NCBI GenBank assembly: GCA_001730095.1
Contig: MDLF01000058.1
Location: forward strand, 1 to 64,000
Reading direction: 5' to 3'
Length of the DNA stretch: 64,000 nt
Source: Rhodobacteraceae bacterium (ex Bugula neritina AB1)
Lineage (GTDB): Bacteria; Pseudomonadota; Alphaproteobacteria; Rhodobacterales; Rhodobacteraceae
The position numbers and the translations under genes were made by a program. Positions 45,471 to 64,000 of the stretch are shown here, one piece after another (position 1 is the stretch's first letter; the number at the start of each line of letters is the position of its first letter). Under the pieces are notes generated by a model, which did no database searches, was not told where the DNA came from, and saw nothing but the letters and a program-made list of their open reading frames with translations.

Positions 45471-45499
45471 CAGCCCCTCAGACTGTTTTCTGATCCTCT

Positions 45500-45738
45500 T
45501 CAGTTTAACACCTCCCTCTCCTCCCGCAGAATACGGTTCTCTTTGCGCAAGCACGCATTGTCGCGGCGCAGTTCCGCGTCCTCGGCTGCAGCCGGATCGG
45601 TCGAATAACTCCGCATTCACTTGCCCAAAGTCGAAAATCCGAACCGAGGTCTGAGGCCACTTGCGGCCGGGTCAGGCCACTGTGCGTCGCGATCCGAACC
45701 GCTTCGCGTCTGAAATCTTCACCAGGTTTGGGTGCCAT
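45500..45738 (-). pseudogene. IS3-family OrfA relic
   Basis: MAPKPGEDFRREAVRIATHS is a typical OrfA start. After about 30 residues the frame changes, and the other frame gives GFSTLGK, a stop where Trp is expected, then DAELRRDNACLRKENRILRE, the leucine zipper of OrfA. A frameshift plus a nonsense codon make it inactive; orfB is absent. Confidence 0.75.
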
Positions 45739-45936
45739 ATCCGATCTCCTCTATGGCGAGCATTGTTCGCAGAAAACCGGAACGGTAGTGAAGCTGGTCC
45801 GCGTTGCTCTCGGTAAACCTGTCACACTGCCCGTAGCGTAAATCAGCCCCAGGAAAGGCCCCCTGCGGTCAGATCCGAATTCCTGCATCAGTGCCGCTGA
45901 AAACCTCATCACTTGACTCAAGGTTAGCGCCTCCTT

Positions 45937-45960
45937 AAACAAACACTTGTTTTTCTAAGA
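45937..45960. promoter_or_regulatory. Candidate operator in front of the TetR gene
   Basis: Inverted repeat AAACAA-ACAC-TTGTTT followed by TTTCTAAGAG, 31 bp before the TetR start. It partly resembles the sites at 53369 and 55943, which supports autoregulation. Confidence 0.45.
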
Positions 45961-45983
45961 GATCGACACAGGACAAGAGCGCA

Positions 45984-46610
45984 ATGAAATCTAATTTGCA
46001 AAGGTCAAACAATCGAAACGACTTGCTGCTTGACGCGGCAGCGGAGCTGTTTGCCACGCAGGGATTTCGCAGCACAACCATACGCGACATTGCCAAAGCC
46101 TCAGGAATGCTGCCTGGCTCGGTCTATTATCACTACGCCTCCAAGGAGGAATTGCTGCTTGCCGTTTACGACACCGGCGTTGCGCAGATCGTCGCGGCCT
46201 TTGAAGCGGCCGTCTCGCGGACCAATCACCCATGGGAACGCCTGAGCATCGCGATATCGACCCATGTCGAGGCGATTACGCAGGACAGTCACTATATGCG
46301 CGTGATCAATCGGGTCTTGCCCGAACATATCCCTGATCAACTGGGAGCACTGACGGAAATGCGGGCAAAATACGAGGCGTGCTTTCAGAGGCTCATCGAA
46401 GACCTGCCCGTCAACGCATCGGTCAACCGCTCTCTGCTCCGGCTGATGGTTCTTGGGGCGCTCAATCATACGCAATTCTGGTTTGACCCCAAGGGTGAGC
46501 TGACACCCGCCGAAGTCGGTGAGGCCTTTACCGGTTTCCTGGTCGAGTCCATAGCGACAGACCAAACCGCAGAAAAAACATCCGAAAAGGGAGACAGCCA
46601 TGCAAGCTGA
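45984..46610 (+). CDS. TetR/AcrR-family regulator of the B12-mutase cluster
   Basis: A 208-residue repressor with N-terminal helix-turn-helix (DAAAELFATQGFRSTTIRDI, then SVYYHYASKEELL) and a helical ligand domain. It overlaps the mutase small-subunit gene by 11 bp, so regulator and mutase are one transcript. The ligand is probably an acyl-CoA of the pathway, as for other TetR regulators of beta-oxidation genes (inference). Confidence 0.88.
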   Translation: MKSNLQRSNNRNDLLLDAAAELFATQGFRSTTIRDIAKASGMLPGSVYYHYASKEELLLAVYDTGVAQIVAAFEAAVSRTNHPWERLSIAISTHVEAITQDSHYMRVINRVLPEHIPDQLGALTEMRAKYEACFQRLIEDLPVNASVNRSLLRLMVLGALNHTQFWFDPKGELTPAEVGEAFTGFLVESIATDQTAEKTSEKGDSHAS

Positions 46611-47034
46611 ACAGCTACGTGTTCTGGTGACCAAGATCGGCTTTGATGGCCACGACCGTGGCAGCCGTGTGGTGGCTGCATATCTACGGGATGCCGGGAT
46701 GGAGGTGATCTATACACCGCCCTGGCAGCAAGTGGGCGCTGTCGTTTCCCTCGCGATTCAGGAAGATGTCGATGTGATCGGTATATCCAGTCTTGCCACT
46801 GACCATCTGATCATCCCTGACCTTATGGAAGCCCTCCGCGCGGCAGACCTTGGTCATGTCGGCGTCGTCGTTGGCGGCATCGTGCCCGAAATCGAATGCC
46901 AGGCCCTTAGGGATGCGGGCGTCGCACTGATCTTTGGTCCGGGCGCGTCGCGTGAAGACATCGTCAGTCAGGTCGCAAAGCTGGGCACGGACGGCCGCAA
47001 GACCAAACTTACATCGGGGGAATTTGCAGTATGA
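46600..47034 (+). CDS. Coenzyme-B12-binding subunit of an acyl-CoA mutase
   Basis: A 144-residue Rossmann-like cobalamin domain with the base-on signature DGHDRG (D16-H18-G21), SSLATDH and VVVGGIVP. It is the separate small subunit found in ethylmalonyl-like, isobutyryl- and 2-hydroxyisobutyryl-CoA mutases. GGGAGAC precedes the start. It overlaps the large-subunit gene by ATGA. Confidence 0.92.
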
Positions 47035-48737
47035 CCCTGGCAAAACTCAAGTCACCTCACGGTGAAGAAAAACAGCTGACATTGCCGGGGTTTGAAGCTG
47101 CAGAAGCGGACTGGCGCAAAGACTACGCCGCGCAGATCGGGCAAAACCGGAAGATCACAAACCGCTCTGGCATCGAAATAGCGCCGATCTATACGCCAAA
47201 GGACTGGTCGTCGGACCAGCACATGGCCGATCTCGGCTTTCCGGGGCAGTCGCCCTATACCCGTGGCATTTATCCGACCATGCACCGGGGACGCACCTGG
47301 ACCCAACGTCAGTTGATTGGTCTAGGTACGCCAGCTGATTACAACGAACGCGTGCGCAAGATCCTCGATCTGGGGGCATCGGCGATCAGCCTGTTGCCCT
47401 GCAATTCGGGCTTTCGGGGAATTGATTGCGACGAAGCGCCGCTCTCCCTACTTGGCACGTGCGGCACGGTCGTTAACACCGTCGACCATATGGACCAGGC
47501 GCTGGATCACGTACCGCTCGGCGAGATTTCTACCGCGATGAACGACCCGTCGCCCTTCACTCTTTTCGCCTTTCTGTTGGGCGTTGCGAAACGGCGCGGT
47601 GTGCCGTGGACCAAGATCACCGGCACCTCAAATCAGTCTGATTACATATCGCATTATGTTGCCAACCATATGTTCTACCGGCTTTCCCAACCCGGATCAC
47701 GGCGTATCCTTGTTGATCACGTCGCTTTCTGCCGTGAGCACGTGCCGAACTGGAACCCGGTATCCGTCGTCGGACAACACATGCAGCAGGCCGGGGCAAC
47801 CCCTGCCGAAACCATGGGTTTTGCCCTGTCGACGGCGATCCAATATGCCGAGGACTGCATGGCCAAGGGCATGGAGCCAGATGCGATCCTCCCCCGCTTC
47901 ACTTTCTTCTTCGATATCTCGATTTCATTCTTTGAAGAGATCGCCAAGTTCCGGGCCGGTCGGCGCATCTGGGCCCGGATTGCAAAGGATCGACTTGGCG
48001 CGAAAGACCCGAGATCGTGGAGGTTCAAGTTCCATGGCCAGACCTCCGGCGTCGATCTGACCGCGCAGCAGCCGCTCAACAATATCGCCAGAGTCGCGGT
48101 ACAGGCCACCGCGGGCATATTCTCAGGTCTGCAGTCAATGCACACCGACGCCTATGACGAGGCCATCACCTGCCCGACAGAAGAAACCGCACGCATCGCG
48201 GTGGCCACGCAGAACATTCTGCGCGAAGAGGCGCATCTCTGCGATGTCATCGATCCGCTGGGCGGCTCTTACTATATTGAAACTCTGACCAATCAGATGG
48301 AAGAGGATATTCTGAAGGTCATGGATCAGATCGAAACTGCTGGAGGCATGTATGCGGCGGTCGGATCGGGGCTGGTTCAGACCATGATCGGTCAATCCGC
48401 ACTCGCCGCGCAAGAAAAGATCGAGACTGGCGTCGAGAAGGTGGTTGGCGTCAATTGTTACCGCGAAGATGACGACGGTGTTAGCCAACCTCTGCCATAC
48501 CGGCCCGATGCCGATGCGATGCAGGCTCATGTAGAGGCGTTCAAAACCTTCAAGAAAGAGCGCAGTCAACAAGACGTCGAAAAAGCGATAGATGACCTGC
48601 GCCGTGCCTCGAACAACGAAGATCTGAATGTCTTCGAGAAAGTTGTCGATGCCGCCAGCGCAGGTGTCACGCACGGCGAAATCATTGGCACACTCAGAGA
48701 AGAACTTGGGTTTGGCCATCCGTTGGTGGTTGCCTGA
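47031..48737 (+). CDS. Large subunit of a divergent B12-dependent acyl-CoA mutase
   Basis: A 568-residue TIM-barrel mutase subunit. The C-terminal half is canonical (RFHGQT-like [43 protein letters not shown]). The substrate end is not: the Tyr89 of methylmalonyl-CoA mutase (RQY) is L95 (RQLIGLG), the Arg207 position is A211 (HYVANH), and the usual AFDL..GYDSD segment is replaced by [15 protein letters not shown]. Isobutyryl-CoA mutase has Phe and 2-hydroxyisobutyryl-CoA mutase has Ile at the first site, so this should be another substrate class. Coupled to the small subunit, with the chaperone directly downstream. Confidence 0.88.
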
Positions 48738-48741
48738 TCCC

Positions 48742-49773
48742 ATGCTGACAGAACCCGCAACAAAAGCAAAAGAGAGCGCATTCCAACGGCTTTTGGATGG
48801 TGATGTGGCCGTATTGGCCCGGGCGATTTCACTTCTGGAAACGGGAGGAACCGACAGTGAGGTTCTGACAAACCGCCTTCGCAATCACACCGGCTCGGCG
48901 CGTGTGGTGGCTTTCACAGGGCCGCCGGGTGCGGGCAAATCGACCCTGATCAATGCCTATGTGGCTGAACTCCGTCGGCGCGGCCATAGGGTCGCTGTTC
49001 TTGCAGTTGATCCTTCCAGCCCACTCACGGGCGGTGCGGTGCTGGGGGATCGTACCCGGATGGGAGAACACAGCGCGGACGCAGGTGTCTTTATCCGCTC
49101 TGTCGCCTCGCGCGGTCACCTCGGAGGGCTGGCATCATCCATCCCGGCCATCCTTGATGCCGTGGATGCGGCGGGCTGGCAGATCATCGTCCTAGAAACC
49201 GTTGGGGCGGGCCAGTCCGAAACCGAAATCGCCGAAATCGCGGACGTAAATGTTGTGCTGAATGCGCCGGGTCTTGGCGATGATGTTCAGGCCATCAAGG
49301 CCGGTATTCTGGAGATTGCCGATATTCTTGTCGTGAACAAATGCGACCTGCCCCATGCAGATCGCACCGTTCGCCAGCTTCAATCGATGCTGCAACTTCG
49401 CAAGGCGGAGCGGCGCAATATACCGATCCTTTCCACTTCGGCAGACCGCGCCGAAGGGATTTGCGAGCTGTCCGATGCCATATCTGCCAGGATCGAAGAC
49501 GCAAAGAAAGTATCACAGGAACAATACCGACGGCGGCGGCTGAAGGGACTGTTGTGCCGGCGCGCCGAGGCCATAGTCCGCAACCGGCTGTCCTCCCTGT
49601 CCGAAGCGGATGCCGACCGAATTTTGGAACAGGTGAGCCAGGGAAAGTTGTCAATTGAAACCGCAACGGAGGCGCTCATTGCAACGGTGTTTTCTGCAGT
49701 TCCTTCGCCATACCCGCAGCAGGTGTTAAACCCAAAGGATGATGACCCTGACAACTGGGATTGCGGTTTTTGA
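48742..49773 (+). CDS. MeaB/ArgK-type GTPase, B12 mutase chaperone
   Basis: A 343-residue G3E GTPase: Walker A GPPGAGKSTLI, EHSADAGVFIRSVASRGHLG as switch region, ETVGAGQSE and the NKCD specificity motif. It protects and reloads cobalamin in acyl-CoA mutases. The start at 48742 lies 5 nt after the large-subunit stop; the longer frame from 48628 overlaps that gene and is not conserved. Confidence 0.92.
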   Translation: MLTEPATKAKESAFQRLLDGDVAVLARAISLLETGGTDSEVLTNRLRNHTGSARVVAFTGPPGAGKSTLINAYVAELRRRGHRVAVLAVDPSSPLTGGAVLGDRTRMGEHSADAGVFIRSVASRGHLGGLASSIPAILDAVDAAGWQIIVLETVGAGQSETEIAEIADVNVVLNAPGLGDDVQAIKAGILEIADILVVNKCDLPHADRTVRQLQSMLQLRKAERRNIPILSTSADRAEGICELSDAISARIEDAKKVSQEQYRRRRLKGLLCRRAEAIVRNRLSSLSEADADRILEQVSQGKLSIETATEALIATVFSAVPSPYPQQVLNPKDDDPDNWDCGF

Positions 49774-50114
49774 CCTCTTTCCCCCGTGCAAACTATTGGC
49801 GCTCATAGCTCCAGTTGAAAACTGAAAACTCCAGGCCAATCAATCACGTCTCACTTGGGGAACACGCAAAGCAGACAGATTTTGCTTTGACTTCCGAAAG
49901 TTACTGGAACACGTCCTGGCAGACGACAATGGACCGGTCGCGCATTTGCGCCGCCCTCGGTGCATGTTTACATACATGAGAGAGGGACAGCTTGAACCCT
50001 CCAGCACAATGGGGTCTTCGGTCCGGCCGAAGGCTGCTTGCGCGACTTGCGTCGGACACTTGACGCGCTTGCAATTCCCTCGATCAGCCCCGCAGGTGCT
50101 GATGTCAGACAGAC
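49774..50114. other. Intergenic stretch between convergent operons
   Basis: No gene recognised. It contains the hairpin CTTCGG-TCCGG-CCGAAG, which may terminate one of the converging transcripts, and an A/T palindrome ATGTTTACATACAT. Short open frames here lack ribosome-binding sites. Confidence 0.5.
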
Positions 50115-50426
50115 TCACCGGTTCGGCGGCACCATCGGCAGGTTGTGCACCGTAAGCTCTTGTTCAACGCGGCGCGGTTGCCCCTCCATCAAATGGGCCA
50201 TCCCGTCCATCACAGACTGCCAGCGCCGGCTGCTGGCCTCAAACTTCTCTTTGTCTTTCCAGATCGTGATCCCAACGGATTCCGAACCGTCATCGACAAA
50301 GGTGTCCAAGATATAGAGCAAGCCCGTTTCCTCGGGATCATTCTCCCGAAGAAAGTTTTCAGCCTCTGCCTTGATCGCATCGAGCGTGCCGGGTTTCAGG
50401 GTGAAGTAGTTGATCCGCATGTACAT
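50115..50426 (-). CDS. ABM-type ferredoxin-fold small protein
   Basis: A 103-residue protein beginning MYMRINYFTLKPGTLDAIKA with the antibiotic-biosynthesis-monooxygenase/dimeric alpha-beta barrel pattern (GLLYILDTFVDDGSESVGIT, then KFEASSRRW). Start at 50426, or 50420; AGAAGAG precedes. Last gene of a three-gene minus-strand operon after the SDR and FadH-like genes. Members oxidise quinols or act as heme or substrate-binding proteins; specific role unknown. Confidence 0.7.
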   Translation of the reverse strand: MYMRINYFTLKPGTLDAIKAEAENFLRENDPEETGLLYILDTFVDDGSESVGITIWKDKEKFEASSRRWQSVMDGMAHLMEGQPRRVEQELTVHNLPMVPPNR

Positions 50427-50442
50427 GGCTGTGCTCTTCTGT

Positions 50443-52416
50443 TCAGATTTCGAAACCGGCCCGAAGCCCTTCCAGAACGGCCTCTTCCGCAGTGCGCGGC
50501 GCAAGACAGTCCCCGATGATCTTTGGTGTGAACCCTGCCGCCAGCAGATCGTCTGCCAGCGACGCATTGCGGCGCGGCGCGTGGTGTGAAACCAGCGTGT
50601 CGACACCCTCCATGATGACCGGCTGATTACTGGTGACATGCTGGAAGTAGACCGTGTCTTCATCGGCCCCGAACAGGCGGACATAGGGAACGACCTCGAC
50701 ATCCAGCTTGTGCAGCTCACCCATCCAGTGATCACGCACCATCGAGGGGATACGCTCCCCGGCCACAATACCATTCACCGCCAGCCGCACGTGGCAGCCG
50801 CTTTCGGCCAGCAGCTGCGCCAGCCCCAGCCCGACCCAGTCCGAGCGCCAGTCCCAGATCACCACGGATTTGCCGACATTGGCCTGCCCGCTGATAACCG
50901 ACCAGCTGTCCAGAACCGTGGCCGTCTCTGACAGATGTTCCAGCTGCGGCAGGTTTGAGGAAGCGCCGGTGGCCACGATCACCTCATCCGGGGCCAGATC
51001 CTGCACCATTGCCACATCTGCGGCGGTCGAGGTGCGGACATCCACGCCATTCAGGTCCAGTTCGCGCGCCAGATTGGTGGTCAACCCGCCGAACTCGGCC
51101 CGTTTCGGCAAAAGTTGCGCCAGGTTCACCTGTCCGCCCAGCCTCTTGTCGCGTTCCAGCAGGGTGACGTTGTGCCCGCGTTCTGCTGCGACCGCGGCTG
51201 CCTTCATGCCGCCGGGGCCACCACCGATCACCAGAACGCGCTTGGGGTGATCCGTTTTGGGCTTGTCGTAATACGCCAGTTCACGCCCGGTTTCCGGGTG
51301 CTGAATGCAGGAAATCGAATGCCCTTTCAGCCCATGTCCGATGCAAGCCTGGTTACAGGCGATGCAGGCGCGGATATCATCGGGCCGCCCTTGCCGCGCC
51401 TTTCTGGTGAATTGCGGGTCTGCGATATGCGCACGGACCAGCCCCACCATATCGGCCTGGCCATCTGCCAGAACCCGTTCTGCATCCTGCGGCTGGTTAA
51501 TCCGCCCCGCGATGAACACGGGCAGTGAGACATGCTTTTTCACATCCTCCGCCATAGGCGCCAAATAGGCGTTTTCATGCACCATATGCGGGATGATATG
51601 CATCCAGCCCGCATAGCTCGCGGTGGTCGCGGCAATGATGTTGAAATAGTCCAGATCCCCATCCGCTTCGAGCAGCTGAAGCGCCTGCGCGGTCTCACCG
51701 GGTTTCAGCCCCTCGTCATCCATTTCATCTGCCGAGATGCGAATACCAAGCAGTTTGTCCGGGCCAATCTTGGCGCGGATCTGTTGCAGAATATCGCGCA
51801 GGAATTTCAGCCGCGCCTCGAACGAGCCGCCAAATTCATCCTCCCGCTGATTCAGGCGCGGGTTCAGGAACTGCGACGGCAGATAGCCCATGCTGGACAC
51901 GATCTCGATCCCGTCCAGATCGGCCTCGGCCATGCGTACGGCCCCATCCACATAGGACTGGATCAGCTCATACACCGCGTCGGTGCGCAGGGGGCTGGGG
52001 ATGTTCTTGTAGACCTCGTCAGGCACTTCGGACGGGCCAAAGGTGGGCATGATCGACCCGTCGACCGAAACACCCGCAACTCGACCGGGGTGAAACAGCT
52101 GGCCGACCATGCGACAGTCATACTGGCGCCCCATGTCGGCCAGCGCTTTCAGCCCGGGAATACAATCGTCCGACATCGTCGACAGCCGGTTCGCCGGCGC
52201 ATAGGTCGGGTGGATCACGTTCACCTCGGTGATGATCATCCCGATATCGGCCTCGGCCCGGGCGCGATGATAGGCCAGCAGGCGGTCGCCCACGGTCCCA
52301 TCCGGTTCAATCAGCCGGGTGGCATGACCGGCTGAAAACGCGCGGTTCTTGACCGTCAGCTTACCGATTTCAAGCGGCGAGAAGAGATGCGGGTAATTCG
52401 GGTGCGGTTGTGCCAT
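50443..52416 (-). CDS. FadH/old-yellow-enzyme-type 2-enoate reductase (FMN, 4Fe-4S, FAD)
   Basis: A 657-residue three-domain flavoprotein: N-terminal TIM barrel (LFSPLEIGKLTVKNRAFSAG; GYLPSQFLNPRLNQREDEFG), a 4Fe-4S site CIACNQAC followed 11 residues later by C, then a nucleotide-binding half (RVLVIGGGPGGMKAA). The family reduces 2,4-dienoyl-CoA or enoates, or demethylates N-methyl compounds. The start shares one base with the stop of the SDR gene upstream in the operon. A second, distinct paralogue lies at 61803. Confidence 0.85.
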   Translation of the reverse strand: MAQPHPNYPHLFSPLEIGKLTVKNRAFSAGHATRLIEPDGTVGDRLLAYHRARAEADIGMIITEVNVIHPTYAPANRLSTMSDDCIPGLKALADMGRQYDCRMVGQLFHPGRVAGVSVDGSIMPTFGPSEVPDEVYKNIPSPLRTDAVYELIQSYVDGAVRMAEADLDGIEIVSSMGYLPSQFLNPRLNQREDEFGGSFEARLKFLRDILQQIRAKIGPDKLLGIRISADEMDDEGLKPGETAQALQLLEADGDLDYFNIIAATTASYAGWMHIIPHMVHENAYLAPMAEDVKKHVSLPVFIAGRINQPQDAERVLADGQADMVGLVRAHIADPQFTRKARQGRPDDIRACIACNQACIGHGLKGHSISCIQHPETGRELAYYDKPKTDHPKRVLVIGGGPGGMKAAAVAAERGHNVTLLERDKRLGGQVNLAQLLPKRAEFGGLTTNLARELDLNGVDVRTSTAADVAMVQDLAPDEVIVATGASSNLPQLEHLSETATVLDSWSVISGQANVGKSVVIWDWRSDWVGLGLAQLLAESGCHVRLAVNGIVAGERIPSMVRDHWMGELHKLDVEVVPYVRLFGADEDTVYFQHVTSNQPVIMEGVDTLVSHHAPRRNASLADDLLAAGFTPKIIGDCLAPRTAEEAVLEGLRAGFEI

Positions 52417-53333
52417 TAGACCGGATCCCAGCTGAAGAACTCTGGCGAAGTGTTGAGCGACGCAAAGCTGGACGACAGGCTTGGCATTGCGTGATCCGCA
52501 ATGGTTTCGGGCGTCCAGCCGTCTGCTGTATGCACACTGCGTTCCAGCCCTGTCGGGTGGAAGAGATAGACCTCATTCGCGCGCACACCAAAGATCTGCC
52601 CTGAGATCTCATGCGCCGCATCGCTAAGCAGGTAAACCGCCAGCGGGGCCACCGACTCGGGTGTCATCTTTTTCATCCGCTCGATGCGTTTTTGCTGTTC
52701 CGGAGTTTCAGACGGTAAATTCGAAAACATCCGTGACCAGGCAAAAGGCGCGATGCAGTTGGACCGCACGTTGTAGCGCTGCATGTCCAGCGCGATGCTT
52801 TTGGACAGGGCCACGATGCCCAGTTTGGCGGCGGCATAATTGGCCTGCCCCAGATTACCGATCAGCCCCGTCGTTGATGTCATATGCACCAGTGCCCCGC
52901 CTTTTTGATCGCGGAAGAACCCGGCGGCACTGCGCGAGACATTGAACGTGCCCATCAGATGCACGTCGATCACCGCCTTGAACGATTCATACGACATCTT
53001 GTGAAAGAAGCCATCGCGCAGGATGCCCGCATTGTTGACCACCCCGTCGACGCGCCCGAACGCCGCAACCGCGTCGCGGATCATCCCCTGCGCCTCATCC
53101 GGTTCAGCCACGCTGCCAGTGTTGACAATAGCCTGTCCGCCCAGTTTGCGGATCTCGGCTGCTGTCTCTTCTGCGGGTCCGGATGTGCGCCCTGCCCCGT
53201 CCAGTTCGGCGCCGATGTCATTCACAACAACATTGGCCCCTCGGGCGCCCAAGGCAATAGAGATTGCCCGCCCGACACCGCGCGCGCCGCCCGTTACGAC
53301 AATGGTGCGACCTTCGACATTCGGTTGTTTCAT
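52416..53333 (-). CDS. SDR of the MFE-2/(3R)-hydroxyacyl-CoA dehydrogenase type
   Basis: A 305-residue short-chain dehydrogenase: TGGARGVGRAISIALGARGA (NAD(P) loop), NNAGILRD, Ser in MTSTTG and YAAAK catalytic pair. The extended C-terminus ending SPEFFSWDPV resembles the dehydrogenase unit of MFE-2 and 17-beta-HSD type 4. ATG 53333 follows GAGGCAGG; upstream frame to 53738 is not conserved. First gene of the minus-strand operon, divergent from the SDR at 53452. Confidence 0.82.
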   Translation of the reverse strand: MKQPNVEGRTIVVTGGARGVGRAISIALGARGANVVVNDIGAELDGAGRTSGPAEETAAEIRKLGGQAIVNTGSVAEPDEAQGMIRDAVAAFGRVDGVVNNAGILRDGFFHKMSYESFKAVIDVHLMGTFNVSRSAAGFFRDQKGGALVHMTSTTGLIGNLGQANYAAAKLGIVALSKSIALDMQRYNVRSNCIAPFAWSRMFSNLPSETPEQQKRIERMKKMTPESVAPLAVYLLSDAAHEISGQIFGVRANEVYLFHPTGLERSVHTADGWTPETIADHAMPSLSSSFASLNTSPEFFSWDPV

Positions 53334-53368
53334 ACCTGCCTCATTCGACTGACCCCAATTCTCGTAGC

Positions 53369-53405
53369 ACAAGAATTTTTTTTCCCAAAGAGAAAATTGC
53401 TCTTC
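53369..53405. promoter_or_regulatory. Candidate TetR sites in the divergent SDR promoter
   Basis: ACAAGAATTTTTTTTCCC (53369-53386) matches 14 of 18 positions of the palindromic site at 55943. The reverse strand of 53387-53405 contains GCAATTTTCTCTT, matching the other site at 55926. Confidence 0.45.
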
Positions 53406-53451
53406 AAAACTGGTGCGCCCGCGCGTTACAGTATCAGCAAAGGAGATCGCC

Positions 53452-54225
53452 ATGGACTTGTTCAGCCTCGCAGGAAAAACAGCCCTTGTTACCGGTGCAT
53501 CGCGCGGGATCGGACGCGCGATTGCCCTGCGCATGGCCGAGGCGGGCGCAACCGTTCTGATCAACAGCCGGACGCCAGAGCGGTGCCAGGCCGTTGTTGA
53601 CGAAATCATAGCCGCCGGCGGGAAAGCCGCAGCGGTTCCATACAACATCTCGAAAGAAGCCGAAGTGCGGGAACTGGCCGAAAACTGCCTGGCGCAGTTT
53701 GGCACCGTCGACATCTTTGTTGGCAACGCAGCGGCCAATCCGCATTACGGCCCCGCGCTTGAGGCCCCGATGGAGGCCGTCGACAAGATCATCAACACCA
53801 ACATCAAATCGAACCTGATCCTGTGCAAGGCATTTGTCCCCGGCATGCGGAAAAAGGGCGATGGCGTGATCATGCTGATCACCTCGATTGCAGGCGCCCA
53901 ATCCTCCGAAGGGCTGGCCATCTACGGGATGAGCAAGGCCGCAGAGGCGTCGCTGGTGCGCAGCCTCGCGACTGAACTGGGGCCGGACAACATCCGCGTC
54001 AATGCCATCGCGCCGGGCCTTGTGCGCACCGACTTTGCCAAGGCTTTGTGGGAAGATAAAGAGCGGCTGAAACGCACCGAAGAGGCCTATCCTCTGCAAC
54101 GTATCGCCTCCCCCGACGAGATTGCCGGAACCGCCGTGTGGCTGGGTTCACCCGCCGGCGCTTTCGTCACCGGACAGACTATCACTGTCGACGGCGGCAT
54201 CACCGTGACCGGGAAACGCGCGTGA
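53452..54225 (+). CDS. SDR-family oxidoreductase (DHRS4-like)
   Basis: A 257-residue dehydrogenase with TGASRGIGRAIALRMAEAG, GNAAANPHYG (variant of NNAG), Ser in ITSIAG and YGMSKAA, plus the C-terminal VDGGITVTG. AAGGAGAT precedes the ATG. It may oxidise or reduce a carbonyl of the pathway substrate. Monocistronic, facing the convergent ligase gene. Confidence 0.85.
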   Translation: MDLFSLAGKTALVTGASRGIGRAIALRMAEAGATVLINSRTPERCQAVVDEIIAAGGKAAAVPYNISKEAEVRELAENCLAQFGTVDIFVGNAAANPHYGPALEAPMEAVDKIINTNIKSNLILCKAFVPGMRKKGDGVIMLITSIAGAQSSEGLAIYGMSKAAEASLVRSLATELGPDNIRVNAIAPGLVRTDFAKALWEDKERLKRTEEAYPLQRIASPDEIAGTAVWLGSPAGAFVTGQTITVDGGITVTGKRA

Positions 54226-54242
54226 GCGATTGCACCGCCCGG

Positions 54243-55889: not shown

Positions 55890-55925
55890 AGCAAAATTCC
55901 TCAGCTCTTCTTGGATTTTGGTAGT

Positions 55926-55960
55926 ACAAGGCAATTTTCTTTACAAGAAACTTTTCTTGC
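55926..55960. promoter_or_regulatory. Tandem candidate TetR operators in the ligase/FadJ promoter
   Basis: CAAGAAA-CT-TTTCTTG (55944-55959) is a perfect palindrome with 7-bp arms. Directly before it, ACAAGGCAATTTTCTTTA (55926-55943) matches the same 18-nt pattern at about 13 positions. Confidence 0.55.
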
Positions 55961-55985
55961 AATATACGAACATTCGGAGGTGCCG

Positions 55986-58097
55986 ATGTCCCAAAAAAAC
56001 CCGCAGGCTCAGCTTGAGTTGACCGAATCCATCGCTGTTATTCAATTCCAAAATGCGCCGATGAATGCGATGTCTCCGGGCCTGCCCGGGGCGATCCTGC
56101 AGCAATTGCGCGCCGCGCAAGATGCCGGGGCCAAGGCGGTTCTGCTGGTGCCCGGCGGCTCTGGGGTGATGGCTGGGGCCGATATCTCGATGCAAGGGAA
56201 GGACTGGCCCGCGGACGAGCCGTTGATGTCGGACCTGATCCGCACATTGGATGATTGTGCCGTGCCAACCGCCATCCTGCTGCGCAAAAGCGCCTTGGGG
56301 GGCGGGTTGGAAATTGCCATGGCCTGCCGCTGGCGATTTGCCACTGCCGGCACGAAACTGGGCCAGCCCGAGGTCAATCTGGGCATTCCCCCCGGAGCAG
56401 GCGGCACCCAACGCCTGCCGCGCATCGTGGGCATTCAGCACGCCTTGGACATCTGCATTACAGGTCGCCCGATTGATGCGACCAAGGCCCAGTCCCTTGG
56501 CCTGATCGACGCCTTGGTGCCTGCTGAAACTGCGCAAGAGGCGTGCCTGTCGTTCCTGCGCGACGCACTGAAGGCGGGCCAGATCCCCGCACCGGCCGGC
56601 GCACGGCAGATCCCGGAGGTCGACGAAAGCGTTTTTGAGACCGCCCTGGCTCAGGCCACCAAACGCCGTCGGGGCGAAACCGCGCCAACGGCCATCATTA
56701 ACGCCATCCGCGCTGCCGCTCAGCTGCCGCTCAGCGAAGGGCTGGCACAGGAACGAAAACTCTATCTTGATTGCGTGGCTTCGGATCAGGCCGCTGCCAT
56801 GCGGCATGTGTTCTTTGCCGAACGCGCCGCCCTCAAAGGGCACACCAGCAAGGAGGCGCAGGCGCGCCCCATCACCAAGATCGCCGTTGTCGGTGCAGGC
56901 ACCATGGGCAGTGGCATTGCCATTGCCTTTATGATGGCCGGTCTCCACGTACATCTGGCCGAGCGTTCAGGCGAAGCATTGCAAGCCGGGCTGGACCGCA
57001 TCCGCGCCTTTTTCGATGGCCGCGTCAAAGCCGGCCGGATGAAGGACACAGCCGCCAGGGACATGCTGGCCAGGCTGAGCAGCAAAGCTGCGCTGGATGA
57101 CCTGCCCCCCGTCGATCTGGTGGTCGAGGCGGTGTTCGAGGAGATGGCAGTCAAGAAATCGGTGTTTGCCACCCTGGCCCAGGCCACCGCACCGGGCACC
57201 ATCCTGGCCACCAATACCTCTTATCTGGATGTGGATGAGATTGCCGCCGCTGTCCCGGACCGGGTGAGCGACGTTCTGGGCATGCATTTTTTCAGCCCTG
57301 CCAACATCATGCCCCTGCTGGAGATCGTGCGGGGCCGCGACACCGCTGATGACACGCTGGCCACGGTCCTGGCCCTGTCGAAAACCATCGGCAAGACGGG
57401 GGTTGTATCGGGTGTCTGCCACGGATTCATCGCCAACCGCAGCTTTTCCAAATACCTGCGCGAGGCCGAGTTCCTGTTGCAAGAGGGCGCAACACCCGCG
57501 CAGGTCGATGCAGCGATCCGCGCCTTTGGTCTGCCCATGGGCCCCTTTGCCGTGCGTGATCTGGCGGGGCTGGACATCGGTTGGGCGATGCGCAAATCCA
57601 CCGCCCATCTGCGCAACGCCAATGAACGCTACAGCACCGTGGGCGATGCGATCTGCGAGCGGGGCTGGTTCGGGCAGAAGACAGGCCGCGGGTTCTTTAA
57701 CTATGCCGAAGACAAACGCCGCGGTGCCGAAGACCCCGAGGTGCTGAACATCATCCGTGAAACAGGGGCCGCAGCGGGGATTACCCCACGCCAGATTTCG
57801 GATCAGGAAATCGTCGACCGCTGCCTGCTGGCGGTGGTGAACGAAGGCGCAAAAATCCTGCAAGAGGGGATCGCGCGGCGTGCCTCGGATTTCGATCTGG
57901 CCTGGATCAACGGCTATGGCTTTCCGAAATGGCGCGGCGGTCCACTGTTCTGGGCCGAGCAAACCGGGTTGCAAAAAGTTCTGGCACGGATCGGCTCCTT
58001 TCACGGCGATCACGATTTCTGGGAACCCGCCGCACTGCTGCAAGAGCTGGCCGCAGACGGAAAAACCTTTGCCCAGCATACAGGAGCACCGACATGA
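55986..58097 (+). CDS. FadJ/FadB-like enoyl-CoA hydratase / 3-hydroxyacyl-CoA dehydrogenase
   Basis: A 703-residue bifunctional beta-oxidation enzyme. Residues 1-190 are a crotonase ([28 protein letters not shown] and [20 protein letters not shown] with the two Glu). Residues about 295-480 are the NAD domain ([20 protein letters not shown]), followed by two C-terminal helical domains. The start at 55986 follows GGAGG. Coupled by ATGA to the thiolase gene. Confidence 0.92.
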
Positions 58098-59281
58098 GCC
58101 AACGTCAGGCTGTCATCGTTTCGACCGCGCGCACGCCGATTGCCAAGGCAGGGCGCGGTGCGTTCAACATCACTCACCCAGCCGAACTGGGCGGCCATGC
58201 GATTGAACACGCCGTGAAACGCGCAGGCCTTGATCCCGCCCGCGTCGAAGATGTCGTGATGGGGTGCGGGATGCCCGAGGGCAAGCAAGGCTTCAACATC
58301 GCCCGCATGTCGGGCCTGCGGGGCGGTGTGCCGGTGAACGCGGGCGGGCTGGTGATCTCGCGCCATTGTTCGTCGGGGCTGCAAGCAATCACCTTTGCCG
58401 CGCAGCAGATCGTCATGGAAGGCGCGCCGGCCATGGTGGCGGGCGGGGTGGAACATATCTCTCTGGTGATGGGCCAGCGTTCGCCTGGCGCACAGGACAA
58501 CGACTGGCTTCAGGCCAACAAACCCGACCTCTTCATGCCGATGCTGGACACTGCCGAAGTGGTGGCCAAACGCTATGGCGTTTCGCGCGAGGTGCAGGAT
58601 GAATACGCCCTGCAAAGCCAGAACCGCACCGCCGCCGCGCAAGAGGCCGGGGCTTTTGACGATGAGATCGTGCCCCTGGCAACAACCAAACAGGTGGTGG
58701 ATCGCGAAACCGGGGAAACCTCGCTCCAGGAGGTGACGCTGACCAAGGACGAAGGCAACCGCCCGGGCACCAAGCTGGAAAACCTCGCCTCTCTCAAACC
58801 TATCAAGGGCGCGGGCCACACCGTGACCGCAGGCAATGCCAGCCAGCTCTCGGACGGGGCATCGGCCTGCGTGCTGATGGAAGCAGGCGAGGCCGAAAAA
58901 GCCGGGCTGGAGCCTCTGGGTGCCTATCGCGGCATGGTCGTCGCGGGGCTGGAGCCAGATGAAATGGGCATCGGCCCGGTCTATGCCATCCCGCGCCTGC
59001 TGGAACGGCACAACCTGACCATCGATGACATCGACTTGTGGGAATTGAACGAGGCCTTTGCCGTTCAGACTGTCTATTGCCGCGACCGTTTGGGCATCCC
59101 GAATGAACGGCTGAACGTCAACGGCGGCGCCATTTCCGTGGGCCACCCTTTTGGCATGAGCGGCGCGCGTCTGACCGGCCATGCCCTGATCGAGGGCCGC
59201 CGCCGCAAGGCAAAATATGCCGTCGTGACCATGTGCATTGCCGGTGGTCAGGGTGCCGCTGCCTTGTTCGAAATTTTCTGA
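58094..59281 (+). CDS. Acetyl-CoA acyltransferase (thiolase)
   Basis: A 395-residue thiolase with nucleophile Cys in [30 protein letters not shown] (His) and CIAGGQGAA (second Cys). It cleaves the 3-ketoacyl-CoA made by the upstream bifunctional enzyme. The start at 58094 overlaps the previous stop. Confidence 0.93.
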
Positions 59282-59316
59282 CCCCGATTTGACCCAGATT
59301 TGACCCGGAGCGCGCG

Positions 59317-61107
59317 ATGACCAGCATCCTCGATCGCAAGACCATCGATTTCATTCTGTTCGATATGCTCTCAGTCGAACAGCAATGCGGTGCAGGACGG
59401 TATCAGGATCACGACAGACAGTCGCTTGATGCCGTCCTGGATCTCGCTCAGAAGCTATCCGAGGATGAGCTCTGGCCACATGCCGCCCTGTCCGACACCC
59501 GCGAGCCGCAGCTTGTTGAGGGTCAGGCACGCATTCTGCCCGAAGCAAAAGACGCATTGGCCAAACTGCGCGAGGCCGGGTTCTTTGCCGCGCATGCGGA
59601 TTACGAGCTTGGCGGGATGCAACTGCCAGTCAGCGTCAATCACGCCTGCAACGGCATGATGAAGGGCGCCAATGTCAGTACCCACGCCTATATGTCGCTG
59701 ACGCGCGCCGCCGGGAACCTGCTGAAGGCGCACGGAACCGACTGGCAAAAATGGGTCTATATGGAACCGATGCTCGAGGGCCGGTTCTTTGGCACCATGT
59801 GCCTGTCGGAACCCGATGCGGGCTCGTCGCTGGCCGATATCCGCACCCGGGCCAAAAACATGGGCGACGGCACCTATCATTTGACCGGATCCAAGATGTG
59901 GATCAGCGGCGGCGATCAGGATGTGTCAGAAAACATCGTGCATCTGGTGCTGGCCCGCCTGCCCGATGCCCCGCCGGGTGTACGCGGGATTTCCCTGTTT
60001 GCGGTGCCCAAATATCTGGTCAACGAAGACGGCTCACTGGGCGCGCGCAACGGGGTCGTGACGGCGGGCCTCAACCACAAGATGGGCTATCGCGGCACCA
60101 CCAACTGTCTGCTCAGCCTGGGCGATCCGGCCCCGGCCATTGGCACGCTGGTGGGTAAAGAGAACCACGGGCTGGCCACCATGTTCCACATGATGAACGA
60201 GGCGCGGATCGGTGTTGGCATCGGGGCGGCCATGCTGGGCTCGGTGGGCTACCGCTATTCGCTGAACTACGCGCAGGAGCGCCGTCAGGGGCGCACCCTG
60301 TCCAACCGCGATCCGCTCTCAAAGCCGGTACTGCTGATTGAACATGCCGACGTGCGCCGGATGTTACTGCGGCAAAAGGCGCTGTCCGAGGGGGCGATCG
60401 CCCTGTGTCTCTATGCGGGCGATCTGGTCGACCGCAGCATCCTGACCGATGATCCGGCAGAGAAGGAACGCCTTGCCGCGCTGCTTGATCTGCTGACGCC
60501 TGTGGTCAAGTCCTGGCCGTCCGAGTTCGGGCTGGACGCCAACCGCGAGGCGATTCAGATTCTGGGCGGCTATGGCTATACCCGGGAATTCCCGGTTGAA
60601 CGGCTTTACCGTGACAACCGGCTGAACATGATCCACGAGGGTACCAATGGCATTCAGGCCCTCGACCTTCTGGGTCGCAAGATCATCGGCAACGGGATGA
60701 AGTCCCTCGACATCTTCCGCCAGGAGGTCGCGACCACCCTGGCCGAAGCACGTGATCAAGACGCGCTGAAACCCCATTGCGCACGTCTGGAGCAAATGCT
60801 GTCAGACTTGACCAAAACCGCCGAGTCGGTGGCTGAGACGATGCAATCGGCCTCCAAGGATCAGGCCTTGGCCCATGCAAGCGCCTATCTGAATGCCTTT
60901 GGTCATTTCGTGGTGGCCTGGCTGTGGGTGCGCATGGCCAGCACAGCCGCCCTCCAACCCGCAAGCAGGGACGAGGCGTTCCTGACCGGCAAGAAAACCG
61001 CCTGTGCGTTCTTCTTGCAGCATGAACTGCCGCAGGCGCAGGCCTGGCTGGAGATTGCGGGCGCTGACACCAGCCTGCTGGCCAATGCCACCGCCGAAGT
61101 GTTCTAG
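59317..61107 (+). CDS. Acyl-CoA dehydrogenase, about 600-residue class
   Basis: A 596-residue FAD enzyme: CLSEPDAGSSLADIRTRA, GSKMWISGGDQ, then GGYGYTREFPVERLYRDNRL and IHEGTNGIQALDLLGRK with the catalytic-type Glu. Length and the C-terminal extension place it with the larger, DmdC-like class rather than short-chain enzymes. GGAGCGCGCG precedes the ATG. Third gene of the plus-strand beta-oxidation operon. Confidence 0.9.
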   Translation: MTSILDRKTIDFILFDMLSVEQQCGAGRYQDHDRQSLDAVLDLAQKLSEDELWPHAALSDTREPQLVEGQARILPEAKDALAKLREAGFFAAHADYELGGMQLPVSVNHACNGMMKGANVSTHAYMSLTRAAGNLLKAHGTDWQKWVYMEPMLEGRFFGTMCLSEPDAGSSLADIRTRAKNMGDGTYHLTGSKMWISGGDQDVSENIVHLVLARLPDAPPGVRGISLFAVPKYLVNEDGSLGARNGVVTAGLNHKMGYRGTTNCLLSLGDPAPAIGTLVGKENHGLATMFHMMNEARIGVGIGAAMLGSVGYRYSLNYAQERRQGRTLSNRDPLSKPVLLIEHADVRRMLLRQKALSEGAIALCLYAGDLVDRSILTDDPAEKERLAALLDLLTPVVKSWPSEFGLDANREAIQILGGYGYTREFPVERLYRDNRLNMIHEGTNGIQALDLLGRKIIGNGMKSLDIFRQEVATTLAEARDQDALKPHCARLEQMLSDLTKTAESVAETMQSASKDQALAHASAYLNAFGHFVVAWLWVRMASTAALQPASRDEAFLTGKKTACAFFLQHELPQAQAWLEIAGADTSLLANATAEVF

Positions 61108-61110
61108 CGC

Positions 61111-61398
61111 TCAGGGCACCAGCACGTTCTGCTGAAACACCGGCAGGCCCGCGGCGGTGGCCAGGGCCTGGTTCACCTGTTCCAGGGGATAGCTGTGCGA
61201 CTGGATGCGCGACAGGTCCAACTGGCCGCTTGCGATCATCTCGACCACCCGGCCCGGCGCATCACGGTCGAACCAGAACGACCCGACCAGCGTGATCCCG
61301 CGCAGCACCAACCCGCCAGCCTGCGGCGGCACGGCTTCACGACCTTCGATTGTCAGTTGGCCGGCCTCAAACCCCGTTTGGGCATATTTGATGATCAC
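61111..61398 (-). pseudogene. C-terminal fragment of a zinc-type alcohol dehydrogenase/quinone reductase
   Basis: The 95 residues align with the end of medium-chain dehydrogenases: LRGITLVGSFWFDRDAPGRV, then DLSRIQSHSYPLEQVNQALA. The catalytic and coenzyme domains are missing. An AAGGAAT-GTG start stands 18 bp after the SnoaL-like gene, so it could still be translated. Most simply it is the remnant of a deleted gene. Confidence 0.6.
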
Positions 61399-61416
61399 AT
61401 TCCTTGTCAGGCGAAG

Positions 61417-61806
61417 CTAGGCGTCATCCAGCCGGAACCCCGACCCCTTGCAATAGGCTGATTTGCTGGCGATCTTGTCGCCCTCGAAAACCAGCAGGTC
61501 CAACCCCCGCATCACCTTGCGCTGGCCTTCGATATCCATGGCCAGCGACCAGCTGGTCATGACCTTGTTCTGATCCGGATCGGCAAAATAATCCTCTCCC
61601 GCGAACGCGATCTGCCCGCGTGCGCCCGACAGCAGCGGCGCAAAGGAAGCGCGGATGTCATCCAGCCCGCGAAACACATTGCCCAACCCGTCATCATAGA
61701 CGGCATCAGCGGTGAAAAAGCGCATGACTGCGTCCAGATCGTGACGGTTGAACGCCTCGACAAATCCTTTGGTCAGCTCCTGCAGCTGTGTTGCACGTTG
61801 CATCAT
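61417..61806 (-). CDS. SnoaL-like (NTF2-fold) protein
   Basis: A 129-residue cone-shaped alpha-beta protein: FVEAFNRHDLDAVMRFFTAD, VFRGLDDIRASF, and GLDLLVFEGDKIASKSAYCK. The family includes ketosteroid isomerases, cyclases and hydroxylase partners. Tandem ATG at 61806/61803 overlaps the stop of the flavoprotein gene, so they are translationally coupled. Confidence 0.78.
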   Translation of the reverse strand: MMQRATQLQELTKGFVEAFNRHDLDAVMRFFTADAVYDDGLGNVFRGLDDIRASFAPLLSGARGQIAFAGEDYFADPDQNKVMTSWSLAMDIEGQRKVMRGLDLLVFEGDKIASKSAYCKGSGFRLDDA

Positions 61807-63821
61807 TTGGGTCCTCCAAATTCCATGGCCCATCTGTGGCCGTCATGAATGGCCATTGCGATTGGTCCCGGCGCCACGCAATCTCCGATGCGCGAGACAG
61901 ACCGGACGCCTGCCGCCGCACAATCTGCCTTGCGGGCCTCCAGATCATGAAACACGTCGGAGGCGGTGTCGCGCATTGTCACCATGACGATGTCGGCCCC
62001 TTCGATCACCTTGGGTGTGCCGGTCCAGGCGTGGGCCAGCTCGATCCGTTCAGGCGAGATGCTGGTCAGGTTGTGGGTGGGCAACAGTTCGATCTCCAAT
62101 TCGACCAACCGGCCCAGAACATGGCCGTATTCCTGCGCGAACTTGCTGTAGTTGGCGAATTCGGCCACCGGCGTCACCAGCGAGACGTCACAGCCCGCCA
62201 GTTTGAGTTTTTCGGCAATCACCGACCCCATGTAATAGTGGTCATCATCGAACACCACGACCCGGCCCGAGGGGCAATTCCCCACCATGATGTCATCGGG
62301 CGTATAGACATTCCCGGACTCCCACCCCGGCACCGGGCTGGAGTACTGCCGCCCCATGCCGTTGCGCCGCCATGGGCCGCCAGTCGCAAAGACCACGTTG
62401 GGAATGCCGAACTCCAGGATCTGTTCGGCATCCAGCGGGCTTTGCAGATAGGTGTTCACATTCGGCATCTGCGCCAGCTGACCAATCCGATACTCTGCCA
62501 CCGCCCGCCAGGCCGCCAGACCCGGCAGCGCCGCCTCTTGGATCACCCGTCCCCCCAAGGCGTCGCCCGCTTCGGCCAGGGTCACATCATACCCCCGCTT
62601 GCCCAACGTCAGGGCGCATTCCAATCCCGCAGGCCCGCCGCCGACGACCAGAACACTGTCCTGCGAACGGCGCACAGGCACGGTTTCAGGGTGCCAGCCA
62701 TCAACCTCTTTGCCAATGGTCGGGTTCTGAGTGCAGCGGATCGGAACCGACAGCAGCACGTTGGTGGTGCACATGTTGCAGCCGATACATTCGCGGATGT
62801 CGTCAATCTGCATGTCCCGGATCTTGTTCGGCAGGAACGGGTCGGCAATCGACGGGCGCGCGGCCCCAATCAGATCGAGCCGCCCCTTTTTGATGTCCGA
62901 TACCATCCGGTCCGGGTTCACATAGCGCCCCACTCCCACAACCGGTTTGGTGGTCACCGATTTCACAAAATCGGTGTATTCACGCTGATAGTCTTCCTCG
63001 AAAAACCGCGACACGCCGGAATCGTTTGACCAATCGCTGACATTCACGTCCCACAGGTCGGGGAGCTCGGCCAGCATTTCGACCACCTCGCGGCCTTCGT
63101 TCTGCCACTCCAGCCCGCCCGGTCCCATCATCTCGTCCACAGCAAAGCGTACGGCCACGGCGCATTTGTGGCCCACGGCCTCTTTCGTGGCTTCGATCAT
63201 CTGCCGGAACAGGCGCACGCGGTTTTCCAGCGACCCGCCGTATTCGTCACTGCGCCGGTTGTAGCGCGGCAACAGGAACTGCATCGGCAGTGACAGATCA
63301 TGCGCGGCATAAACATAGACAATATCCGCCCCTGCCGTCATCGCCCGCCTGGCCGCATCGGCCTGCGCCTGGATCACGCGGCGAATGTCGGATTTGTCGG
63401 CGGTCTTGGCCACATAAGGTCCAAACGACCAATAATGCGTCTGCGACGGGGCCAGCGGATATTCCCGCGTCAACTTGTTGGCCGCTGATTTGCCCGCATG
63501 ACACAGTTCAACCGCGAACAGCGCGTCATACTCGTGCACCGCATCCGCCATCCGCGCCAGAAACGGGATATCCGCATCGGACGCCAGCCGCATATGCGGG
63601 GAGGGCGAATGGTCCGAATTGCTGTCGATCATGCATTCTTCGGTGGCGACAACCCCCCAACCGCCCTCGGCCTTGGTTTTCCGATAGGCAATCGCGTGCT
63701 CCGGATAGGTAAAGCCCATGCCCGTCGCATGGGGCGCCTGAAAGAACCGGTTCTTTGCCGTCACCGGGCCGATTTGGACGGGCTCGAACAAAAGCGAGTA
63801 AGGATGCCTTGAGTTGGACAT
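61803..63821 (-). CDS. Trimethylamine-dehydrogenase-like flavoprotein
   Basis: A 672-residue enzyme with the domain order of TMADH/FadH. ILFEPIQIG-like LLFEPVQIGPVTAKNRFFQA starts the barrel, CIGCNMC plus a Cys 11 residues later is the 4Fe-4S site, and VLVVGGGPAGLECALTLGKR opens the nucleotide half. The TMADH residue Cys30 that binds FMN covalently is Ala here (PHATGMG). So it is closer in chemistry to enoate reductases or N-demethylases with non-covalent FMN. Start at 63821; upstream frame to 63953 lacks a ribosome-binding site. Substrate unknown. Confidence 0.82.
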   Translation of the reverse strand: MSNSRHPYSLLFEPVQIGPVTAKNRFFQAPHATGMGFTYPEHAIAYRKTKAEGGWGVVATEECMIDSNSDHSPSPHMRLASDADIPFLARMADAVHEYDALFAVELCHAGKSAANKLTREYPLAPSQTHYWSFGPYVAKTADKSDIRRVIQAQADAARRAMTAGADIVYVYAAHDLSLPMQFLLPRYNRRSDEYGGSLENRVRLFRQMIEATKEAVGHKCAVAVRFAVDEMMGPGGLEWQNEGREVVEMLAELPDLWDVNVSDWSNDSGVSRFFEEDYQREYTDFVKSVTTKPVVGVGRYVNPDRMVSDIKKGRLDLIGAARPSIADPFLPNKIRDMQIDDIRECIGCNMCTTNVLLSVPIRCTQNPTIGKEVDGWHPETVPVRRSQDSVLVVGGGPAGLECALTLGKRGYDVTLAEAGDALGGRVIQEAALPGLAAWRAVAEYRIGQLAQMPNVNTYLQSPLDAEQILEFGIPNVVFATGGPWRRNGMGRQYSSPVPGWESGNVYTPDDIMVGNCPSGRVVVFDDDHYYMGSVIAEKLKLAGCDVSLVTPVAEFANYSKFAQEYGHVLGRLVELEIELLPTHNLTSISPERIELAHAWTGTPKVIEGADIVMVTMRDTASDVFHDLEARKADCAAAGVRSVSRIGDCVAPGPIAMAIHDGHRWAMEFGGPK

Positions 63822-64000
63822 GCGGCGGAACCTGTTCTTGGTTTGGCTATTTGAACCCGGCGTCTTCTTGGAAGCACTGGCGAAGACGCCGGGTGACGCG
63901 CAGGGAGAGGGCGCGCGCTGTTGGATTTCAGGGCGAACCGGCCAGCGCCGCAAAGCGACGCCGCCGGATCAGTGAAGCAGTTGTGAAGGCGCGCGTCATA
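63822..64000. other. Right-edge non-coding stretch
   Basis: It probably holds the promoter of the minus-strand flavoprotein operon. No complete feature is recognised before the window ends. Confidence 0.4.

Follow-up and report, generated by a model that had tools for sequence, protein, structure and literature searches.

A candidate pivalyl-CoA mutase operon beside a probably separate β-oxidation gene set in a laterally acquired region of a Rhodobacteraceae bacterium

Introduction

Acids with a quaternary carbon persist because β-oxidation cannot start on them, and a B12-dependent mutase is one known way round such carbons. A two-subunit pivalyl-coenzyme A (CoA) mutase was reportedly cloned from Xanthobacter autotrophicus Py2 by Kitanishi, Cracan and Banerjee in 2015, and is said to interconvert pivalyl-CoA and isovaleryl-CoA and to have no activity on isobutyryl-CoA. 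Here we describe a 64,000 nt stretch of DNA from Rhodobacteraceae bacterium (ex Bugula neritina AB1) (assembly GCA_001730095.1, contig MDLF01000058.1, positions 1 to 64,000; hereafter the window), which carries genes for a two-subunit adenosylcobalamin (AdoCbl)-dependent acyl-CoA mutase, its regulator and its GTPase chaperone next to an acyl-CoA β-oxidation gene set. The mutase cassette resembles one in strain Py2 in its TetR–small subunit–large subunit–GTPase gene order, in having two separate mutase subunits, in a large subunit 73% identical to Xaut_5043 and in the sequence motifs of a distinct mutase clade. The Py2 cassette differs in what follows it, namely a PaaI/PaaD-type thioesterase, ligases and a Liv-type transporter, an arrangement not found in the window.

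Two other described enzymes offer points of comparison. HcmAB, the 2-hydroxyisobutyryl-CoA mutase (HCM), is likewise a two-subunit AdoCbl-dependent acyl-CoA mutase with a GTPase partner, and its structure (4r3u) is the best PDB sequence match of the window mutase (4.3e-100). According to PMC7176365, hcm operons contain meaH and the hcl ligase and, in most cases, a GntR regulator. The window instead has a TetR regulator and no hcl ligase, and its mutase has Leu in place of both Ile90 and Asp117 and an inserted residue in the GTxNQSD loop. IcmF catalyses the same class of reaction, and PMC10481361 and PMC9974510 report that it interconverts pivalyl-CoA and isovaleryl-CoA besides its own reaction; however, it is a single fused chain with a G domain, whereas the window subunits are separate. 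A literature search on pivalyl-CoA mutase returned nothing on the mutase clade described below, from which we do not claim that it is absent from print.

The initial annotation of this DNA had read the 18 kb from the TetR gene onwards as a single pathway. Our analysis indicates that the 18 kb is not a conserved unit in the genomes examined, and that it is probably not one pathway. The reading that we favour, with some reserve, is of a composite within a genomic island, in which unit A is a mobile pivalyl-/isovaleryl-CoA mutase operon, unit B a β-oxidation set in its own right and unit C the terminal part of an amine-type set of catabolic genes continuing beyond the window.

Results

Unit A occupies 45,984–49,773 on the plus strand. 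It encodes a TetR-family regulator (45,984–46,610, 208 amino acids; Pfam TetR_N 1.7e-18, TetR_C_24 5.2e-18), a B12-binding small subunit (46,600–47,034, 144 amino acids; PF02310, 5.5e-23), the mutase large subunit (47,031–48,737, 568 amino acids; PF01642, MM_CoA_mutase, 5.6e-164) and a MeaB-type GTPase chaperone (48,742–49,773, 343 amino acids; Pfam MeaB 2.2e-84; TIGR00750 295 bits, cut-off 240.75). Since these four genes overlap or almost touch, they look like one operon; a scan of 45,300–50,500 for promoters and terminators gave nothing exceeding shuffles. For MeaB, the ATG at 48,742, just past the mutase stop, is a likelier start than 48,628, and apart from this choice of start codon the coordinates given initially were right. 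Unit B, the acyl-CoA β-oxidation set, spans 50,115–61,107. Its ABM-like, OYE1 and SDR1 genes lie on the opposite strand and converge on unit A, 341 bases from the end of MeaB, and its SDR2, ligase, FadJ, thiolase and acyl-CoA dehydrogenase genes are on mixed strands. Unit C, as far as it falls within the window, consists of the mutually overlapping SnoaL and OYE2 genes (61,417–63,821, minus strand). Third-position GC is 0.637 in unit A, 0.741 in units B and C and 0.718 in core genes, and the codon distance of unit A to the window core is 4.42, compared with 2.56–4.07 for 500 same-length draws from B and C. We read three units because OYE2 is kin to the histamine and trimethylamine dehydrogenases, unlike OYE1, because codon usage differs, and because unit A recurs alone.

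This recurrence was seen among 33 other distinct mutase copies of at least 55% identity (34 copies in 33 loci, less one duplicate contig, L162, which equals L022). They were drawn from genomes and plasmids; one Sphingobium plasmid supplied two copies, and among the sources are two Sulfitobacter-type plasmids that are nearly identical to each other. A small subunit gene adjoins the mutase gene in 30 of the 33 copies, a homologous TetR gene lies upstream in 28 (on the same strand in 25) and MeaB lies downstream in 26; several contigs end near the mutase gene, so that some of the missing partners reflect truncation. The four-gene cassette occurs in Alpha-, Beta- and Gammaproteobacteria, with six plasmid records included. 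Conservation of gene order, which the initial annotation had set as a test, holds for this four-gene subset, which is widely conserved, but fails for the full 18 kb in the genomes examined. We counted as orthologs of the ten unit B and C proteins any that matched with 45% identity or more across 60% of their length and were encoded within 12 kb of the mutase gene, and found one in a single copy of the 33 (flanks being limited in 19), a thiolase in locus L126, and in none of the 14 copies with at least 8 kb of flank on both sides. None of 393 further genomes of the family had a match to FadJ at E<=1e-190, and five of them held the mutase at E<=1e-180; the mutase was also present in 7 of 384 other genomes in a class-wide draw. 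An SDR 60% identical to SDR1 is encoded on a Sulfitobacter plasmid, about 18 kb from the mutase gene there.

Several of these loci showed arrangements of their own. A deep branch of the clade holds four copies, and at the thresholds used two of these, L022 and L160, had no small subunit or MeaB gene beside the mutase. On the plasmid of Sphingobium sp. YC-XJ3 (L094), the full cassette with a thiolase and a ligase occurs in two copies; some 10 kb separates them, and insertion sequences (IS) lie in between. On a plasmid of Diaphorobacter sp. HDW4B (L095), a different second acyl-CoA mutase, encoded with a CoA-transferase and a GTP-binding protein, lies at 32,629–34,679, and the clade mutase is about 11 kb away.

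Comparison with 20 genomes of the same genus indicated where synteny within the genus ends. In 19 of them, similarity of 85–91% extends to 33.9–34.0 kb of the window and then stops (in seven of these it falls into two pieces); in the twentieth (G008), the match is of 83% and ends at 28.7 kb, among the matches listed. GC content dips to 0.537 at 34–36 kb. Colinearity ends at about 33.9–34.0 kb and an IS-rich stretch comes next, suggesting that the island starts well before 45.9 kb. For 45,900–64,000, no colinear match was present in the 20 genomes among the matches listed; the best scattered one, within the same matches, scored 363 bits (66% over 1.8 kb), and such matches fell mostly at paralogs of the thiolase, OYE, FadJ and dehydrogenase genes. 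At E<=1e-100, all 20 lacked a match to the mutase itself. An IS66 transposase gene (44,117–45,298) borders the cassette, bearing out the IS-rich border that had been described, and together with the loss of synteny near 34.0 kb these data support the earlier suggestion that the region was laterally acquired. Parts of the IS-rich zone match Leisingera plasmids, with 94.7% identity at 40.3–42.2 kb and 98.8% at 42.6–43.7 kb, and these matches suggest a host from the Roseobacteraceae. An AbiJ/Abi_C abortive-infection-like gene (42,936–43,829) lies by this zone; a Leisingera caerulea plasmid shares 98.8% identity with most of the gene and with the sequence upstream of it.

We then considered unit B apart from the mutase. 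Its ligase, acyl-CoA dehydrogenase, FadJ fusion and thiolase liken it to the FadJ/FadE/FadA-type sets of Proteobacteria, from which it differs in a FadJ at most 47% identical to any other among the matches listed, and in a gene order not seen elsewhere in the regions examined. Relatives of OYE1 occur in 11 of 384 other genomes of the class (48–54% identity) and in 26 plasmid records (33–49% identity), and we inspected three of the plasmid regions and one region in each of 10 of the 11 genomes. The rest of unit B was absent near the OYE1 relatives in the ten genome regions, and unit B as a set at close identity was found in none of the 3 plasmid and 10 genome regions. Diverged β-oxidation sets like unit B do exist elsewhere without the mutase. 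An Ochrobactrum plasmid has relatives of OYE1 (47%), FadJ (40%) and the thiolase (39%) within 10 kb, with no mutase in that stretch. Further, partial parallels were a FadJ (42%) paired with a thiolase (63%) on the Leisingera S132 plasmid, and FadJ (43%) and dehydrogenase (51%) relatives on Actibacterium and Bosea plasmids, paired with each other on the Bosea plasmid.

These data bear on an alternative explanation, that units A and B form one recently assembled pathway. In such a pathway, unit B, by way of its ligase, FadJ, thiolase and dehydrogenases, would trim an (unsaturated) acid with a tert-butyl or gem-dimethyl end down to pivalyl-CoA or a similar compound, which the mutase of unit A would then rescue, and the recent assembly would account for the combination not being conserved elsewhere. 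The adjacency of A and B is in keeping with this, as is the absence from the 20 same-genus genomes of the mutase and, among the matches listed, of any colinear A and B match. Unit B is moreover complete as a β-oxidation set and has an enzyme resembling dienoyl-CoA reductase, BktB-like thiolases occur near the mutase gene in 4 of 32 loci (at least 38% identity, loci that supplied the reference neighbours included), and the thiolase of L126 is 65% identical to that of the window. However, the two units are convergent and differ in codon usage, the 33 mutase copies include only one with a unit B ortholog nearby, and diverged sets like unit B do without a mutase. We therefore regard a single pathway as possible but unlikely, and the composite, in which B and C would not serve A, as the better account of the locus.

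The mutase belongs to a clade with distinctive sequence features. In a tree of 104 mutases built by a quick method (33 clade rows, the window's included, and 71 others), the clade forms one side of a branch whose SH-aLRT support is 100 and whose stem measures 2.8 changes per column. The tree program warned of long branches meeting, those of HCM and of the clade among them, so the position of the clade among the mutases is unsure. A partial gene (L024) was dropped from the tree by the length filter, and four more distant mutases (L008–L011) were aligned and left out of both the tree and the motif count. For the motif count the window's copy was set aside, which left 33 clade copies to compare with the 71 other mutases of the tree. 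The motifs PC[NC]S, GTxNQSD, FFD[IV]SxS and QTSGxDLT are present in 33 of 33 clade members and 0 of 71 other mutases, and in the clade the GTxNQSD loop has one inserted residue. LGTCG is found in 32 of 33 members and in none of the 71. The residue at the Tyr89 site of methylmalonyl-CoA mutase (MCM) is aliphatic in 32 of 33, the exception being a masked sequence, and in 0 of 71 outside. GQH is present in all 33 members and one outside sequence (L039, whose active-site stretch reads GYH); its His aligns with the His of GYH in MCM and HCM, which we take to be the active-site His244. The DxHxxG-type cobalamin motif is kept in the small subunit as GFDGHDRG.

Alignment of the window mutase places Leu at the position of MCM Tyr89 and HCM Ile90, Leu at that of HCM Asp117 and Asn at that of MCM Arg207. 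We take Tyr89 and Arg207 of MCM to hold the carboxylate of the substrate, and Ile90 and Asp117 to be substrate residues of HCM, so that with these replacements neither a carboxylate nor a 2-hydroxyl group is likely to be held. An IcmF assignment was considered and rejected, as the subunits are separate and the NCBIfam IcmF model scores 207 bits against a cut-off of 1500.

Neighbouring genes of the relatives add to this picture. Plasmid pXAUT01 of Xanthobacter carries both an HCM-type operon (Xaut_5018–5021) and a clade cassette (Xaut_5042–5045), about 20 kb apart, so these two enzymes are unlikely to do the same job. On a Sulfitobacter and a Pseudosulfitobacter plasmid the cassette is followed by genes for a hotdog thioesterase, a TetR regulator, a carboxyltransferase, a hydratase, a biotin carboxylase and an acyl-CoA dehydrogenase; the carboxyltransferase–hydratase–biotin carboxylase–dehydrogenase operon appears, in our own reading, to be of the leucine/isovalerate kind. 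Across the 32 loci, neighbours included a thioesterase in 11, a LivM-type permease in five and a 650-amino-acid ligase in four. Taken together, the coexistence on pXAUT01, the neighbours of the relatives, whose support is thin, and a pocket without the acid- and hydroxyl-binding residues favour pivalyl-CoA/isovaleryl-CoA as the substrate. As judged from sequence, the substrate is thus most likely pivalyl-CoA/isovaleryl-CoA or a closely similar α-quaternary acyl-CoA.

Three other assignments were weighed against a pivalyl-/isovaleryl-CoA mutase. The active-site loops are rebuilt and one residue is inserted, so the clade might have a range of its own that goes beyond pivalyl-CoA to larger acyl-CoAs of the α-quaternary or gem-dimethyl type. 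Units A and B would then jointly provide, in this strain, a new way to break down unsaturated acids ending in a tert-butyl or gem-dimethyl group; we consider this doubtful. A variant of HCM with the HCM/RCM function would explain the two-subunit layout with a GTPase and the match to 4r3u, but is very improbable, given Leu at both the Ile90 and Asp117 sites, a TetR regulator where GntR is usual (PMC7176365), no hcl-type ligase in the operon and the separate HCM-type gene on pXAUT01. The least credible is a duplicate of an ordinary methylmalonyl- or ethylmalonyl-CoA mutase, for although the Pfam and NCBIfam models place the enzyme in the MCM family, Asn and Leu stand at the sites of Arg207 and Tyr89, and the source genome already encodes two further mutases, 35% (C33, MCM-like) and 29% (C96, which by our own label looks ethylmalonyl-type) identical to it; the enzyme does not look like an ordinary mutase of these kinds, as had been suspected.

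All the genes named initially have stop-free frames and were assigned to families by Pfam and NCBIfam matches, so the inventory first drawn up was sound. Its ABM-like protein (50,115–50,426, minus strand, 103 amino acids) stands as a gene frame, but the Pfam ABM match is weak (0.00047; 20.7 bits, under the gathering score of 23.1). In unit B this gene is followed on the minus strand by those for OYE1, a flavoprotein of the OYE/2,4-dienoyl-CoA-reductase kind (50,443–52,416, 657 amino acids; Oxidored_FMN 3.4e-57; PDB matches 6qkg, the "NCR" flavoenzyme, and 1ps9, 2,4-dienoyl-CoA reductase), and SDR1 (52,416–53,333, 305 amino acids; adh_short). SDR2 (53,452–54,225, 257 amino acids; adh_short_C2 1.2e-63) is on the plus strand, and the AMP-forming acyl-CoA ligase (54,243–55,889, 548 amino acids; AMP-binding 2.7e-67), whose best PDB match is the long-chain fatty-acyl-CoA synthetase 1ult, is on the minus strand. 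Three plus-strand genes complete the unit: FadJ-type enoyl-CoA hydratase/3-hydroxyacyl-CoA dehydrogenase fusion (55,986–58,097, 703 amino acids; ECH_1, 3HCDH_N, 3HCDH), thiolase (58,094–59,281, 395 amino acids; Thiolase_N 4.7e-60, Thiolase_C), which overlaps the FadJ stop by 4 bases, and acyl-CoA dehydrogenase (59,317–61,107, 596 amino acids; Pfam match with a PF12806 C-terminal domain; PDB 6ijc, 5.7e-106). Three minus-strand frames opposite FadJ and the thiolase had no Pfam match. At 61,111–61,398 lies a minus-strand frame of 95 amino acids (third-position GC 0.81) that matched neither Pfam nor NCBIfam at the limits applied and may be what is left of a gene.

Unit C comprises the SnoaL-like protein (61,417–61,833, minus strand, 138 amino acids; SnoaL_2 7.7e-17), the start of which overlaps the OYE2 stop, and OYE2, a flavoprotein like trimethylamine and histamine dehydrogenases (61,803–63,821, minus strand; Oxidored_FMN 6.2e-69; PDB matches 6l6j, 3k30 histamine dehydrogenase and 1djq trimethylamine dehydrogenase). 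The minus-strand set continues upstream of OYE2 beyond 64 kb (64,015–78,538) with genes for a class II aldolase, two Rieske proteins, a third OYE, a thiamine-diphosphate enzyme and an Opp-type transporter. The Rieske proteins have partial likeness to glycine-betaine/carnitine monooxygenase (GbcA model 134 and 122 bits, cut-off 670). A methyltransferase-like protein, an Opp permease and a cupin-type regulator in the same stretch are putative labels from our reading of the sequences. These genes and OYE2 may serve methylated-amine catabolism, and we accordingly see unit C, as part of the favoured composite, as probably the end of an amine-type set.

Discussion

We propose that the window holds a new occurrence of a known, little-studied kind of mutase. 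The initial annotation had stated that no described pathway has this combination of genes; for the mutase this is probably wrong, a pivalyl-CoA mutase having reportedly been described. Its suggestion that the mutase removes a block to β-oxidation is plausible, the block being a quaternary α-carbon. In the proposed route, a ligase would form pivalyl-CoA and MeaB would load AdoCbl onto the mutase. Homolysis of the Co–C bond would give an adenosyl radical that takes hydrogen from a methyl group, and the thioester carbonyl would then migrate in a radical 1,2-shift to yield isovaleryl-CoA, so that the quaternary α-carbon that blocks β-oxidation would become part of a β-methyl-branched acyl-CoA. This radical mechanism is established for the mutase superfamily, and its use here is our inference. 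Isovaleryl-CoA could be taken to acetyl-CoA and acetoacetate by isovaleryl-CoA dehydrogenase and methylcrotonyl-CoA carboxylase, for which contig C60 of the source genome encodes a candidate carboxyltransferase, 51% identical to that of the plasmid operon.

Some observations weigh against a separate pivalyl-/isovaleryl-CoA mutase operon. Xaut_5043/5044 are only presumably the characterised Py2 enzyme, and the search of Py2 covered its plasmid alone. NCBIfam names the hydratase of the Sulfitobacter-type plasmid operon only as a crotonase-family protein and leaves the other three genes unnamed, and it does not name the C60 carboxyltransferase as methylcrotonyl-CoA carboxylase. Among the 32 loci, biotin carboxylase and dehydrogenase genes were each found in three and the carboxyltransferase in two; the loci bearing carboxylase or dehydrogenase genes are the two near-identical Sulfitobacter-type plasmids, one of which was the reference, and L017, which has biotin carboxylase- and dehydrogenase-like genes near its mutase, and the window has none. 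As to the independence of unit A, in 19 of the 33 copies the flank on one side or both is shorter than 8 kb, and partners lying further off could be missed. In L126 the thiolase gene is on the same strand as the mutase gene and 2.2 kb from it, with an aminotransferase-type frame between MeaB and the thiolase. Finally, subsets of the core genes reach a codon distance of 4.55 (mean 2.89), and the 4.42 of unit A is within that extreme.

If the clade did prove to have its own substrate range, terpenoid or naphthenic residues would be examples of what a marine-type bacterium could degrade by the new route. On the favoured reading of a mobile pivalyl-/isovaleryl-CoA mutase operon in a composite island, the window warns against assigning neighbouring catabolic genes to one pathway, and the clade motifs, present in 33 of 33 members and in 0 of 71 other mutases, provide a simple way to screen sequences for candidate degraders of the pivalate type.

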